From: Pseudomonas fragi
GTDB taxonomy: Bacteria; Pseudomonadota; Gammaproteobacteria; Pseudomonadales; Pseudomonadaceae
Assembly: GCF_002269505.1 (NCBI RefSeq)
Contig: NZ_NQKQ01000027.1
Span: 1-64,000 of the forward strand
Length of the DNA stretch: 64,000 nucleotides
Direction of reading: 5' to 3'
The first letter of the stretch is position 1. Each line of letters opens with the position of its first letter. Both the position numbers and the translations under genes were made by a program. A model generated the notes under the pieces. That model worked only from the letters and a program-made list of their open reading frames with translations, was not told where the DNA came from and did not search any database. Positions 11,669 to 16,660 of this stretch are shown piece after piece.

Positions 11669-12676
11669 ATGGGTATTGATCTGCCACTTATCTGGGCAAT
11701 CATCATCATCTTCGGGATCATGATGTATGTGGTCATGGACGGTTTCGATCTCGGGATCGGCATCCTCTTCCCCTTTATCAAGGGCGAGAGCGACCGCGAT
11801 GTGATGATGAACACAGTCGCCCCTGTCTGGGACGGTAACGAAACCTGGCTGGTACTGGGTGGCGCAGCGTTGTTCGGCGCCTTCCCGCTGGCCTACTCGG
11901 TGGTGTTGTCGGCGCTGTACCTGCCACTGATCCTGATGCTGATGGGCCTGATCTTCCGCGGCGTGGCCTTTGAGTTCCGCTTCAAGGCACGCCCGGAAAA
12001 ACGCCATATCTGGGACAAATCCTTTATTGGCGGTTCGCTGGTGGCGACCTTCTTTCAGGGCGTGGCGCTGGGGGCCTTTATTGATGGCCTGCCGGTCGTC
12101 AACCGCCAGTACGCCGGTGGTGGAATGGACTGGCTTTCACCGTTCACGGTGTTCTGCGGTGTCGCCCTGATCGTGGCTTATGCCTTGCTGGGTTGCACCT
12201 GGCTGATCATGAAAACCGAGGGTGAGCTGCAAGAGCGCATGCACAAGCTGGGTCGCCCGCTGGCGTTGGCCGTGCTGGTACTGATGGGCATCGTCAGCCT
12301 GTGGACGCCGCTGGCGCACACCGATATTGCTGCGCGCTGGTTTACCTTGCCGAACTTGTTCTGGTTCCTGCCGGTGCCGATTCTGGTACTGGTGACCATG
12401 TACGGTCTGCTCAAGGCAATCGCGCGCAAGGCTCACTACACGCCGTTCCTGCTGACCCTGGTGCTGATCTTCCTGGGCTACAGCGGTCTGGGTATCAGCT
12501 TGTGGCCAAATATCATCCCGCCTTCGATCTCGATCTGGGACGCGGCGGCACCGCCACAAAGCCAGGGCTTCATGCTGGTTGGCACCTTGTTTATCATCCC
12601 GTTCATCCTGGGTTACACCTTCTGGAGCTACTACGTGTTCCGCGGCAAGGTCACCCACGAAGACGGTTATCACTAG
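11669..12676 (+). CDS. cioB: Cyanide-insensitive terminal oxidase subunit II (CioB)
   Basis: The second membrane subunit of the bd-type quinol oxidase, 335 residues with about 8-9 helices. The N-terminus MGIDLPLIWAIIIIFGIMMY and the motif VMDGFDLGIGILFPF are standard for CydB, as are APVWDGNETWLVLGG and FRGVAFEFRFKA. It starts 3 bases after cioA and has a GGGGAATTGAGTC ribosome region. The partner small subunit lies downstream at 12735. Confidence 0.94.
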   Translation: MGIDLPLIWAIIIIFGIMMYVVMDGFDLGIGILFPFIKGESDRDVMMNTVAPVWDGNETWLVLGGAALFGAFPLAYSVVLSALYLPLILMLMGLIFRGVAFEFRFKARPEKRHIWDKSFIGGSLVATFFQGVALGAFIDGLPVVNRQYAGGGMDWLSPFTVFCGVALIVAYALLGCTWLIMKTEGELQERMHKLGRPLALAVLVLMGIVSLWTPLAHTDIAARWFTLPNLFWFLPVPILVLVTMYGLLKAIARKAHYTPFLLTLVLIFLGYSGLGISLWPNIIPPSISIWDAAAPPQSQGFMLVGTLFIIPFILGYTFWSYYVFRGKVTHEDGYH

Positions 12677-12734
12677 TAGCAAATGCCGCTGTGGCCTGAG
12701 GGCCACAGCCTTTTCCCCAAGAGGAGGCCTGAAC

Positions 12735-12902
12735 ATGGCTGGCAAGGATTATCTACACGACGTGCAAGAGTGCGAAAAGAAGCCTTTATGGCAACGCATT
12801 GGCTGGCTGCTGGTGATCTGGACCGGCAGTGTGGCCACCCTGGCAGTATTTGCATGGCTGATCCGTATGTTTATGACGGCGGCAGGCATGAAAAGCCACT
12901 GA
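12735..12902 (+). CDS. Small membrane protein of the cio operon (DUF2474-like, CydX-type role)
   Basis: A 55-residue protein with one membrane helix (about residues 22-48, IGWLLVIWTGSVATLAVFAWLIRMF) after a charged N-terminus (QECEKKPLWQR). Small single-helix proteins of this kind accompany bd oxidases (CydX in E. coli), and DUF2474 is the usual name in Pseudomonas cio operons. The ATG follows a strong AGAGGAGG ribosome site (12720-12727). Its place right after cioB, before the operon terminator, supports a role as a third subunit or assembly helper; that role is inferred. Confidence 0.85.
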   Translation: MAGKDYLHDVQECEKKPLWQRIGWLLVIWTGSVATLAVFAWLIRMFMTAAGMKSH

Positions 12903-13039: not shown

Positions 13040-14164
13040 TTACTTGCGCGCCTTGAGGATCACAAACTTGGGCGTTGCGGCAACTTGCTCGACGCCACGA
13101 AACAGCTTGGCCAGCTTGCTGTGATAGCCCAGATGGCGATTGCCGACTATATACAATGCGCCGCCCACGACCAGCGCTTCACGCGCTTGCTGGAACATGC
13201 GCCAGGCGAGAAAGTCCCCTACCACCTGTTGCTGGTGGAACGGCGGGTTGCACAGCACTACATCCAGTGAATCCGGCGCCTGGCTGGCCAGGCCGTCATC
13301 AGCCCGCACAGTCACTTCGCGATCACCCAGCGCAGCGTGCCAGTTTTCACGGGCGGACTGCACGGCCATAAATGACTCGTCGACCAGTGTGTAGTGCGCT
13401 TGCGGATTGTTCAGCGCGCTGGCGATGGCCAGCACGCCATTGCCGCAGCCCAGATCGGCAACCCGGGCCGAGCCCAGGTTTTTCGGCAGGTGGGGCAGGA
13501 ATGCCCGGGTGCCGATGTCGAGGTCTTCGCGGCAGAACACGTTGGCGTGGTTGAGCAGCTCGATGGCCGGTTTGTCCAGCCGATAGCGGGTAGGGTAGGG
13601 CGAGGTAAATGGCCCCAGCGCCTGGGATGTGGCAATCAGCAGGCGGGCTTTCTTGACCGCCAGCGAGGCTTGCATCGGGCCGATATAACGCTCCAGCAGT
13701 TCCCCTGCGGCACGGGGCAGGTGCTTGACCATTGCCCCCGCGATCACCTGGGCCCCAGGTGCCAATTGGCCTTGCAGACGGATCAGTTGCTCTTCAAGCA
13801 ATGCCAGGGTTTTTGGCACACGTACCAGCACGCAGTCGAATGGCCCGAGCAACGGCTCGCTGGCCGGAATGATCGTGACCGCATCGTAAGCATGGCCATT
13901 ACGCACCAGGTTCTTCTCCAGCGCCTGTATGGCCAGGAAAGAGTCGCTGCTGCTGGTGACCTGCATAGTGCCCACCAGGCTGATCGCCAGGGCCCCGAAG
14001 CTGTCATTGAGCACCAGCACCCGGCTGTTTGCGGGCAGCGCCTGTTCGGCCAGGTGGTTGAGCAAATACTCATCTGCCGCATCAAAGGCCTGTAACGGCT
14101 CGTTTTGCTGCTCGGGTTGGCGGATCAGGCGAAGTTCGGCGAAGGGGCTTTCTAGCACGGGCAT
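13040..14164 (-). CDS. rlmG: 23S rRNA (guanine-1835-N2)-methyltransferase RlmG
   Basis: SAM-dependent enzyme that methylates G1835 of 23S rRNA. It has 374 residues, with a degenerate N-terminal methyltransferase-like half and a catalytic C-terminal half. The latter shows VADLGCGNGVLAIASAL (SAM binding) and the NPPF motif (VLCNPPFHQQ) of N-methyltransferases acting on guanine or adenine. The start MPVLESPFAELRLIRQPE fits the family. The gene stands alone between cio and the LuxR regulator. Confidence 0.92.
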   Translation of the reverse strand: MPVLESPFAELRLIRQPEQQNEPLQAFDAADEYLLNHLAEQALPANSRVLVLNDSFGALAISLVGTMQVTSSSDSFLAIQALEKNLVRNGHAYDAVTIIPASEPLLGPFDCVLVRVPKTLALLEEQLIRLQGQLAPGAQVIAGAMVKHLPRAAGELLERYIGPMQASLAVKKARLLIATSQALGPFTSPYPTRYRLDKPAIELLNHANVFCREDLDIGTRAFLPHLPKNLGSARVADLGCGNGVLAIASALNNPQAHYTLVDESFMAVQSARENWHAALGDREVTVRADDGLASQAPDSLDVVLCNPPFHQQQVVGDFLAWRMFQQAREALVVGGALYIVGNRHLGYHSKLAKLFRGVEQVAATPKFVILKARK

Positions 14165-14317: not shown

Positions 14318-15031
14318 TTATAACAGGCCTGATTTGGCCGCCATGACCACCGCCGAGGTTTTGTTGTTGGCACCCAGTTTTTTCATGGCGCTACTGATAT
14401 GGAAGTTTACGGTACGGGTGCTCAGGCCCAGAATCATGCCGATGTCGGAGGCGATCTTACCTTCGGCAGTCCACTTCAATACCTCCAGTTCTCGGCTCGA
14501 CAGGCGGATGATATGAATCTCCAGTCGGTGATGAAGGTGGCAACGTTCAAGCATGGCACTGTGCAGCTGGTTGCAGAGCCACAACACATTGGCAGCCTTG
14601 TCTGAGAATTCGTCCTCGGTCACCGGCGTGTTTTTTCTGGCGAGGCTCAACATGCTCACTACGCCGCTGGGGTCATGCACCGATTGTGACCAGCCATAGG
14701 TCAGTCCGCAGTTTTGCGTGGCTCGCCACTGGTCAGGGGCTTCACTGAAGACATCAGGACCCCAGATAATGGGCAGGATCGATAACTGGCAGTGGGTCAC
14801 CAGAGGATTTTTTTGAGAGAGGAGACCTTTTTCATACCTCTCTACATAATCATTTGGATAGTTTGTGATTACCTTGCTATTCGTTGTGATGTTTCCAAGG
14901 CGAGGAATCATTCGAAAGAAAAAAAAGTCAAAGCCGTACTCTTCTATTCGTTTGAGTGTGTTTGAGCAAAGTTCGGCCTCGCTTCTGCAAGAAAGGTATT
15001 GGTTAGTGCTGATTGAATGATGTGCGGTCAT
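14318..15031 (-). CDS. Orphan LuxR-type quorum-sensing regulator
   Basis: A 237-residue regulator with an N-terminal autoinducer-binding domain (about 15-165) and a C-terminal LuxR helix-turn-helix (about 175-230; LSSRELEVLKWTAEGK...SDIGMILGLSTRTVNFH). Aligned to the AHL-contact residues of TraR/LuxR, the pocket reads Tyr62 (usually Trp57), Tyr66, Asn75 (usually Asp70), Pro76, Trp90 and Gly123. Two of the most conserved pocket residues are therefore changed. There is no luxI synthase within the window. AGGAG lies 7 bases before the ATG. It is divergent from the ferredoxin reductase gene, which is a possible target. Its ligand may not be a standard acyl-homoserine lactone. Confidence 0.88.
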   Translation of the reverse strand: MTAHHSISTNQYLSCRSEAELCSNTLKRIEEYGFDFFFFRMIPRLGNITTNSKVITNYPNDYVERYEKGLLSQKNPLVTHCQLSILPIIWGPDVFSEAPDQWRATQNCGLTYGWSQSVHDPSGVVSMLSLARKNTPVTEDEFSDKAANVLWLCNQLHSAMLERCHLHHRLEIHIIRLSSRELEVLKWTAEGKIASDIGMILGLSTRTVNFHISSAMKKLGANNKTSAVVMAAKSGLL

Positions 15032-15399
15032 AAGGCGCTCCTGCGGCCCGGCAGAAAATATGCGGTGATATGAGATGCCCTTTAAAGAAGATTTTAGGTG
15101 CTGTTTTGAATAATGCTAATTATTTGAAAGTAGGGGTTGATATGTGAAAACTTTGTTGGTTGTAGATGTGGGTGCTCATTTAATAACAGAGTCTAGTTAT
15201 ACGTTTTCGGGTGTAGCTATATAGCAGTTGTATCAGCTCAATGGAGTCGGCTTCCAAAGCTGAATGCATAAACGATCGCCCTAATAGCATTTGGGGGCGT
15301 GTTTGCGATGTGACAGGATGCCGCAAAGCCATCACAAACCATCGGTGTTTCTCGGCGCGCCTTTGCGCGACACTAGGGTATTCGCCAATGGAGTGCCCC
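15032..15399. promoter_or_regulatory. 368-base A/T-rich gap between luxR-type gene and fpr
   Basis: No supported gene. The stretch is clearly richer in A/T than its surroundings and must hold the two divergent promoters. A short palindrome, GCTATATAGC, lies at 15216-15225. I did not find a typical lux box (ACCTG...CAGGT). An open frame runs upstream of fpr from 15241, but it has no family similarity and no ribosome site. Confidence 0.5.
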
Positions 15400-16176
15400 A
15401 TGACTGCCAGTGCAGAAAAATTCACCCAGCAGACGATTCTCGACGTCACGCCGCTAACGCCCAGCCTGTTTACTCTGCGTACGACCCGCGACCCGGGCTT
15501 TCGCTTTCGCGCCGGGCAGTTCGCCAGGTTAGGGGTGAGCAAGGCCGATGGCAGCACGGTGTGGCGTGCTTATTCAATGGTTTCCTCACCCCATGACGAG
15601 TTTCTGGAGTTTTTTTCGATCGTGGTGCCCGGCGGGGAATTTACCGGTGAGCTCAGTCGCCTGGAGGTTGGCGACACCTTGCTGGTGGAGCGTCAGGCCT
15701 TCGGCTTTCTGACCCTGGATCGCTTTGTCGACGGCCGTGACTTGTGGTTGCTGGCCACCGGAACGGGTATCGCACCGTTCCTGTCGATCCTGCAGGATTT
15801 CGAAGTGTGGGAAAAATTCGAACGCATCGTGCTGGTTTACAGTGCCCGCCATGCCTGCGAACTGGCCTATCAGGAACTGATCGCCGGGTTATGCAGCCGT
15901 GAATACCTGGCCGAATATGCGCATAAATTTGTCTATATACCTATCGTTACCCGGGAGCAGCTACCCGGTGCATTGAACGGGCGCATTACTGCGCTGATTG
16001 AAAGTGGTGAACTTGAGCAGGCTGCGGGTATTGCGCTGAGCAGTGAATACTCACGGGTGATGTTGTGTGGCAACCCGCAAATGATCGATGACACGCGCAA
16101 GTTGCTTAAGGCGCGGGACATGCAGTTGAGTCTGAGTCGCCGGCCAGGACAAGTTGCAGTTGAGAACTATTGGTAG
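15400..16176 (+). CDS. fpr: Ferredoxin--NADP+ reductase
   Basis: FAD enzyme that moves electrons between NADPH and ferredoxin or flavodoxin, important for Fe-S cluster repair and oxidative stress. With the ATG at 15400 it has 258 residues, the same as Pseudomonas FprA. FAD binding: FRAGQFARLGV and RAYSMVSSP. NADP binding: LLATGTGIAPFLSIL and VMLCGNPQMIDDT. I chose 15400 because GGAG lies 6 bases upstream and the preceding frame (from 15241) looks non-coding. Neighbouring mscL and katB match the Pseudomonas order. Which paralogue this is (FprA or FprB type) is not settled. Confidence 0.9.
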   Translation: MTASAEKFTQQTILDVTPLTPSLFTLRTTRDPGFRFRAGQFARLGVSKADGSTVWRAYSMVSSPHDEFLEFFSIVVPGGEFTGELSRLEVGDTLLVERQAFGFLTLDRFVDGRDLWLLATGTGIAPFLSILQDFEVWEKFERIVLVYSARHACELAYQELIAGLCSREYLAEYAHKFVYIPIVTREQLPGALNGRITALIESGELEQAAGIALSSEYSRVMLCGNPQMIDDTRKLLKARDMQLSLSRRPGQVAVENYW

Positions 16177-16246: not shown

Positions 16247-16660
16247 TTATGGACGGTTATTTTGAACTTTGAGCAAGTCGCGAATTTCGCCCAGTAGTTC
16301 CTCTTCTTTAGAGGGCAGTGGCGGTGCGCTCGGAGCGACTGCCTCTTCGCGCTTCAGGCGGTTGATTGCCTTTACCCCCATAAAGATAGCGAACGCGACG
16401 ATGATAAAGTCGATCACGCTCTGGATGAACTTACCGTAGGCCACAACCACTGCTGGGGCATCGCCAACGGCGGCTTTCAGCGTAATGGCCAGGTCACTGA
16501 AGTCCACCCCGCCAATCAACAACCCCAGCGGTGGCATGACCACGTCCCCTACAAAGGACGAAACGATTTTGCCGAATGCCGCGCCGATGATGATACCGAC
16601 GGCCATGTCGACCACGTTCCCTTTGACCGCGAAGGCCTTGAACTCACTTATCACGCCCAT
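16247..16660 (-). CDS. mscL: Large-conductance mechanosensitive channel MscL
   Basis: Inner-membrane channel that opens under membrane tension to release solutes during osmotic downshock. It has 137 residues. The start [37 protein letters not shown] is the family N-terminus and first helix, followed by the second helix [16 protein letters not shown] and the charged C-terminal bundle [25 protein letters not shown] precedes the ATG. It is divergent from katB. Confidence 0.97.

Follow-up and report, generated by a model that had tools for sequence, protein, structure and literature searches.

Loss of the two conserved AHL contacts, W57 and D70, from the PpoR-type LuxR solo of the Pseudomonas fragi group

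A LuxR protein encoded in a 64,000-nucleotide stretch of Pseudomonas fragi DNA (contig NZ_NQKQ01000027.1, the window) is, judged by its gene order and sequence, the positional orthologue of PpoR of P. putida (subgroup A). According to the sequences compared here, the loss of W57 and D70 across the P. fragi group breaks the rule that has been reported for the PpoR locus. We propose that the protein is probably an AHL-blind PpoR orthologue, which would act either independently of a ligand or with a ligand that is not an AHL.

Results

Gene locus and domain structure

The open reading frame of 237 amino acids is free of internal stops and encodes an intact LuxR protein. It belongs to a conserved locus with the following features:

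13040–14164, minus strand: rlmG (23S rRNA guanine methyltransferase), conserved flank (top-scoring NCBIfam model at 276.5 bits, cut-off of 468 not reached)
14318–15031, minus strand: luxR solo, PpoR/subgroup A positional orthologue, 237 aa (ORF translation, Pfam, synteny, residue alignment)
14339–14503, minus strand: HTH DNA-binding domain, Pfam GerE, residues 177–231 (Pfam match and alignments)
14555–14980, minus strand: ligand-binding domain, Pfam Autoind_bind, residues 18–159 (Pfam match)
15400–16176, plus strand: fpr (ferredoxin-NADP+ reductase), divergent conserved flank (top-scoring NCBIfam model at 228.7 bits, cut-off of 390 not reached)
16247–16660, minus strand: mscL, outer flank of the conserved locus (profile match and synteny)

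The order rlmG, luxR, divergent fpr and then mscL is the same in all loci L001–L031, with L001 and L002 being the window's own, and the strands agree with the initial annotation, which had described fpr as divergent from luxR. The order rlmG-luxR-fpr was present in 153 of 157 loci, duplicates included; these loci were collected through their resemblance to the present luxR or rlmG and cover the genus unevenly. The gene context reported for PpoR is fprB-ppoR-rlmG (PMC10134790, PMC4338825), and the same context is that of the LuxR solo “subgroup A” of Bez et al. 2021 (PMC8546723). PpoR of P. putida thus shares with the protein described here the locus (fpr - luxR - rlmG), both domains and the status of a solo.

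Three trees, one of the luxR protein and two of the flanking genes (DNA and protein), all separated the P. fragi group from two hand-picked control groups with a support of 100; the PpoR group was represented in them by control loci with identical gene order, PpoR of strain KT2440 itself not being included. Because the luxR tree and the flanking-gene trees agree on this clade, luxR of the P. fragi group looks vertically inherited, and a horizontal replacement of the locus was rejected. The named members of the clade are P. bubulae (93% identity), P. psychrophila, P. fragi, P. weihenstephanensis, P. lundensis, P. saxonica, P. helleri and a Pseudomonas sp. Elsewhere in the window, at 12579–12902 on the plus strand, a small DUF2474 protein directly follows a pair of ORFs, presumably resembling a cytochrome bd-type (cioAB) oxidase.

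Both domain types of AHL-responsive quorum-sensing LuxR proteins are present, with Pfam scores of 89.3 bits for Autoind_bind (cut-off 23) and 68.3 bits for the GerE HTH. Within the HTH, E181 and G191 are invariant in an alignment of 39 sequences and L185 is nearly invariant in an alignment of 12 sequences; we equate E181, G191 and L185 with E178, G188 and L182 of TraR. The closest solved structure by sequence is QscR of P. aeruginosa (3szt, E 7.9e-36). An AlphaFold model of the protein (mean pLDDT 82.8, pTM 0.64) likewise had a QscR chain, 6cbq, as its first Foldseek match, with TM scores of 0.70–0.72 for 6cbq_A and 3szt_A and of 0.62–0.66 for 3szt_B. Membership in two other LuxR families was rejected by the NCBIfam cut-offs, namely the PA1136/hchA-linked LuxR family (TIGR03541, 52.6 bits, cut-off 215.6) and SdiA (NF007561, 99.5 bits, cut-off 350).

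Ligand pocket

Residues were numbered by alignment to QscR, whose numbering coincides with that of this protein; TraR equivalents are given in brackets. Three positions of the pocket are changed:

14918–14920, minus strand: codon 38 (QscR Ser38, TraR Ala38), Phe (alignment to QscR)
14846–14848, minus strand: codon 62 (TraR W57, QscR W62), Tyr (alignment to QscR)
14807–14809, minus strand: codon 75 (TraR D70, QscR D75), Asn (alignment to QscR)

The exchanges of Trp57 to Tyr and of Asp70 to Asn that the initial annotation had described are therefore confirmed, and so is the retention of the equivalents of Tyr61, Pro71, Trp85 and Gly113. Retained are Tyr58 (Y53), Tyr66 (Y61), Pro76 (P71), Trp90 (W85) and Gly123 (G113), and the motif of the ligand domain reads Y-Y-N-P-W-G. 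A third changed contact position, residue 38, had been missed, and the strand had been left unstated. The polar AHL contacts of QscR are given in a review as Trp62, Asp75, Tyr58 and Ser38 (PMC9654057), so that three of these four positions (62, 75 and 38) differ here, with position 38 having changed from a small to a bulky residue. At the fourth position, the P. bubulae sequence L032 carries His in place of Tyr58 (TraR Y53).

The hydrogen bonds from W57 and D70 are held to stabilize the AHL (PMC8546723). Since both hydrogen-bond partners are lost, a response to AHLs appears unlikely. AHLs might still be bound with shifted affinity or specificity through Y53, Y61, P71, W85 and G113, which are all present, and the match of the predicted structure to QscR would be compatible with this. 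We regard such binding as very unlikely, as neither stabilizing hydrogen bond would persist in its original form and position 38 holds a bulky side chain.

Comparable pocket changes at position 57 and/or 70 have been reported for AvhR and for groups 1, 3, 6, 7 and 9 of Subramoni et al. 2015 (PMC4338825), for example W57Y with D70I/G/A, W57F with D70S and, near hchA, D70A/R/Q/N. These solos are encoded at other loci than that of PpoR and, except for group 9, in other taxa (PMC4338825). The initial annotation had compared the protein with solos of the PluR, PauR and OryR types; its motif and flanking genes match none of these. PluR and PauR are non-AHL LuxR solos with the reported pocket motifs TYDQCS and TYDQYI (PMC10134790), and membership in this pyrone- and dialkylresorcinol-sensing type was rejected by the different motif. 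The plant-responsive PAB/OryR-PsoR solos are marked by W57M, Y61W and a pip neighbour, in place of which we found W57Y, a retained Y61 and the flanking genes rlmG and fpr.

Solo status

No luxI (PF00765) was found in this genome by profile search. Because the same search matched none of 14 control genomes, it was repeated with likely positives over 27 genomes, including 16 comparison Pseudomonas chosen for three or four LuxR matches each. PF00765 was matched in 15 of these 16 and in none of the 11 clade genomes. The initial annotation's description of an orphan gene without luxI therefore holds for this genome, and its relatives in the clade, in which a luxI would have spoken against that description, are negative as well. 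The only match to Autoind_bind (PF03472) found in the genome was the gene itself. The paired luxI expected of an AHL-responsive quorum-sensing LuxR was thus not found in any of the 11 clade genomes. A review reports 72 P. fragi isolates without AHL production and the absence of AHL-synthesis genes from the genome of P. fragi P121 (PMC8701193).

Residue changes across the clade

All counts refer to distinct sequences at the rlmG-fpr locus, 14 within the clade and 114 outside of it, with the broken copies L085, L086 and L119 left out. W57 is replaced in all 14 clade sequences (Y in 8, F in 5, L in 1), the single L57 belonging to a frameshifted copy of P. helleri (L010), which is one of the 14. 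D70 is replaced in 13 of 14 (N in 12, K in 1) and retained only in genome G198 (L008). Outside the clade, W57 is found in 110 and D70 in all 114 of the 114 sequences at the same locus. Because both residues are near-universal there, the Tyr/Asn pair cannot be read as chance. Within the fragi subclade, Tyr62 is present in 8 of 8 and Asn75 in 7 of 8 distinct sequences. Residue 38 is F in 9, L in 3, Y in 1 and C in 1 of the clade sequences, and thus bulky (F/L/Y) in 13 of 14, as against A, S or G in 110 and E in 4 of the 114 outside. The remaining positions are kept in the clade, Y53 in 13 of 14 and Y61, P71, W85 and G113 in 14 of 14; outside, G113 is less strict (G in 101 of 114). The four sequences outside the clade that have lost W57 still carry D70; these isolated replacements by F or L are found at the same locus in L077, L082, L100 and L123.

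Due to the basal position of G198 (F57/D70), which branches first in the luxR tree with a support of 86, the data suggest an order of changes from W57F over D70N to F57Y. The flanking-gene trees give no support to this order.

Bez et al., judging by one or two members of each subgroup, state that both hydrogen bonds, W57 and D70, are retained in subgroups A and B (PMC8546723). The entry of Subramoni et al. 2015 under changed invariant residues is “None” for the PpoR group, whose six invariant residues of the ligand domain are described as unchanged (PMC4338825), unlike the W57Y and D70N found here. The words fragi, lundensis and psychrophila are absent from the main texts of both surveys (PMC8546723, PMC4338825). 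In a literature search that paired the clade species with LuxR, no title or abstract opening among the matches listed concerned this gene, and a search for contact mutants of LasR or TraR found none. The closest characterized relatives differ from the protein in the same residues. PpoR is reported to bind 3-oxo-C6-HSL (PMC2703642), with W57Y, D70N and Phe38 setting the present protein apart. PplR of P. plecoglossicida NB2011 is a solo at the same locus in a host reported not to produce AHLs, is reported to bind C6-, C8-, 3-oxo-C10- and 3-oxo-C12-HSL and keeps W62, Y66, D75 and W90 (PMC11543582), of which W62 and D75 are replaced in the protein described here.

Selection, decay and loss

In codon models fitted with our own script, with the optimiser stopped at no more than 25 and no more than 40 iterations, dN/dS within the clade was 0.17 for the ligand domain, 0.085 for the HTH, 0.063 for fpr and 0.050 for rlmG. 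The broken copy L010 was left out of these fits and of the column table (which also omits the short ORFs L085 and L086), and the maximum-likelihood codon fits also left out L032, which is near-identical to L003. The value for the stem is unreliable, because the optimiser stopped early and a three-class fit (7629.23) brought no improvement over a two-class fit (7629.04). A neutral ligand domain was rejected within the clade (2 delta lnL 476), and on this result and the dN/dS of 0.17 a plain pseudogene was rejected.

Compared with the two control groups, the clade shows weaker constraint both in the ligand domain (dN/dS 0.169 against 0.101; 2 delta lnL 17.1, p 3.5e-5) and in the HTH (0.085 against 0.048; 2 delta lnL 5.8, p 0.016), while for fpr and rlmG its constraint roughly equals that of control group 1. 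In addition, luxR of P. helleri (L010/L055) is frameshifted near residue 28, and G132 (L092) and G196 (L093) have no luxR between rlmG and fpr, which lie 239 bp and 236 bp apart, respectively. Both genomes fall inside the clade in the flanking-gene tree (support 100); G132 has one other Autoind_bind match elsewhere, and none was found in G196. In total, 3 of the 11 clade genomes searched lack an intact luxR at the locus. These observations would fit a relaxed constraint, with AHL sensing disused in the group and the gene slowly decaying. We consider such decay unlikely, since dN/dS is far below 1, the invariant residues of the HTH are kept and the reading frame is uninterrupted in 13 distinct clade sequences. 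Moreover, loss is not special to the clade, because short or broken ORFs (L085, L086 and L119) and an absent copy also occur at the same locus outside of it; the latter is L103 (G073), which lacks luxR between rlmG and fpr and was set outside the P. fragi group by the 87% identity of its rlmG to that of the window, without placement in a tree. The ratio of protein tree lengths between luxR and its flanking genes was 3.7 in the clade, 1.2 in control group 1 and 2.9 in control group 2, so that a luxR evolving fast relative to its flanks is also found in the second control group and is not unique to the clade. With purifying selection alongside a frameshift and absences, the sequences indicate that individual species can do without the gene and that, where present, it is mostly maintained.

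Upstream DNA and fpr

One element is conserved in front of fpr:

15344–15399, plus strand: conserved block before fpr (also in two relatives lacking luxR at the locus)

The lux-box pattern CTRN10YAG did not occur in the two gaps beside luxR, and its 44 matches in the 64-kb window compare with 45.7 expected. One weak AT-rich inverted repeat lies upstream (15104–15129), and a promoter scan gave 3 sites against 1.0 expected, which is suggestive only. For Ppu16R, a member of subgroup A that keeps both contacts, no dependent activity of its own or adjacent promoters was found, and AHL binding could not be demonstrated either (PMC8546723). The initial annotation's idea that luxR might control the divergent fpr gene thus finds no support, since the promoter test with Ppu16R was negative, the fpr block is kept without luxR and the one lux-box pattern tried has no match beside luxR.

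Discussion

The protein is the P. fragi-group counterpart of PpoR, the solo encoded between rlmG and fpr that is regarded in other pseudomonads as an eavesdropper on AHLs from outside. Every member of the P. fragi group seen has lost the lactone contact W57, all except one have also lost the amide contact D70, and the small pocket residue 38 has turned bulky. From the published contacts, the response to AHLs is most likely gone. The protein most likely folds without AHL and, because the gene is still constrained, most likely serves as a DNA-binding regulator whose pocket is either self-filled or occupied by a non-AHL ligand. We infer that the gene would be expressed and that its product would continue to bind DNA independently of a ligand. 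Counted against an AHL-blind protein are the retention of D70 in G198, the broken or missing gene in some clade genomes and the losses of W57 alone outside the clade. AHL sensing by subgroup A as a whole can only be presumed, because Ppu16R gave neither AHL binding nor target promoters with both contacts in place.

The main rival to an AHL-blind regulator that needs no ligand is a pocket retuned to a specific non-AHL ligand, either of the cell's own making or present in its food or microbial surroundings, which we regard as possible though rather doubtful. The ligand domain is constrained, so its interior probably still matters, and a ligand would explain this constraint. The fragi subclade shares Tyr62 and, with one exception, Asn75, and the hydrophobic core is kept; since Y53, Y61, P71, W85 and G113 remain, some acyl ligand could fit the remaining pocket. 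The reported non-AHL solos PluR and PauR carry pocket changes as well (PMC10134790). However, the flanking genes are rlmG and fpr, with no ligand-synthesis operon adjoining, positions 57 (Y/F/L) and 70 (N/K/D) vary within the group, no new polar contact common to the whole group was seen in the column table by eye, and residue 38 is bulky. This heterogeneity of the clade and Phe38 fit ligand independence at least as well as the sensing of a non-AHL compound. Given the bulk of residue 38 and the variety at positions 57 and 70, we lean towards a filled or folding-only pocket in a ligand-independent regulator. Of the non-AHL sensing suggested by the initial annotation, the solo status and the two changed contacts stand, while the sensing itself has become one of several readings of a gene that is the orthologue of the AHL-binding PpoR.

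We also speculate, as a decidedly unlikely variant, that PpoR was turned from an AHL eavesdropper into a receptor for another, possibly lipid-like, ligand of the meat and milk habitat. Once AHL signalling no longer mattered to the lineage, the lactone and amide contacts would have been swapped and the pocket repacked by Phe38; our guess at such ligands would be products of lipolysis such as monoacylglycerols or fatty acids.

No LuxR solos are said to be more widespread in the P. fluorescens group than the PpoR-type regulators (PMC8546723), which are classed as AHL eavesdroppers that retain both contacts. A whole clade of species that spoil meat and milk departs from this description, and most of its members keep the gene. 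For AHL-based signal interference in spoilage by the P. fragi group, an action via this receptor cannot be assumed. With W57/D70, F57/D70, F57/N70 and Y57/N70, the PpoR locus offers a natural series at one fixed position in the genome that may show how a LuxR protein loses or changes its ligand.
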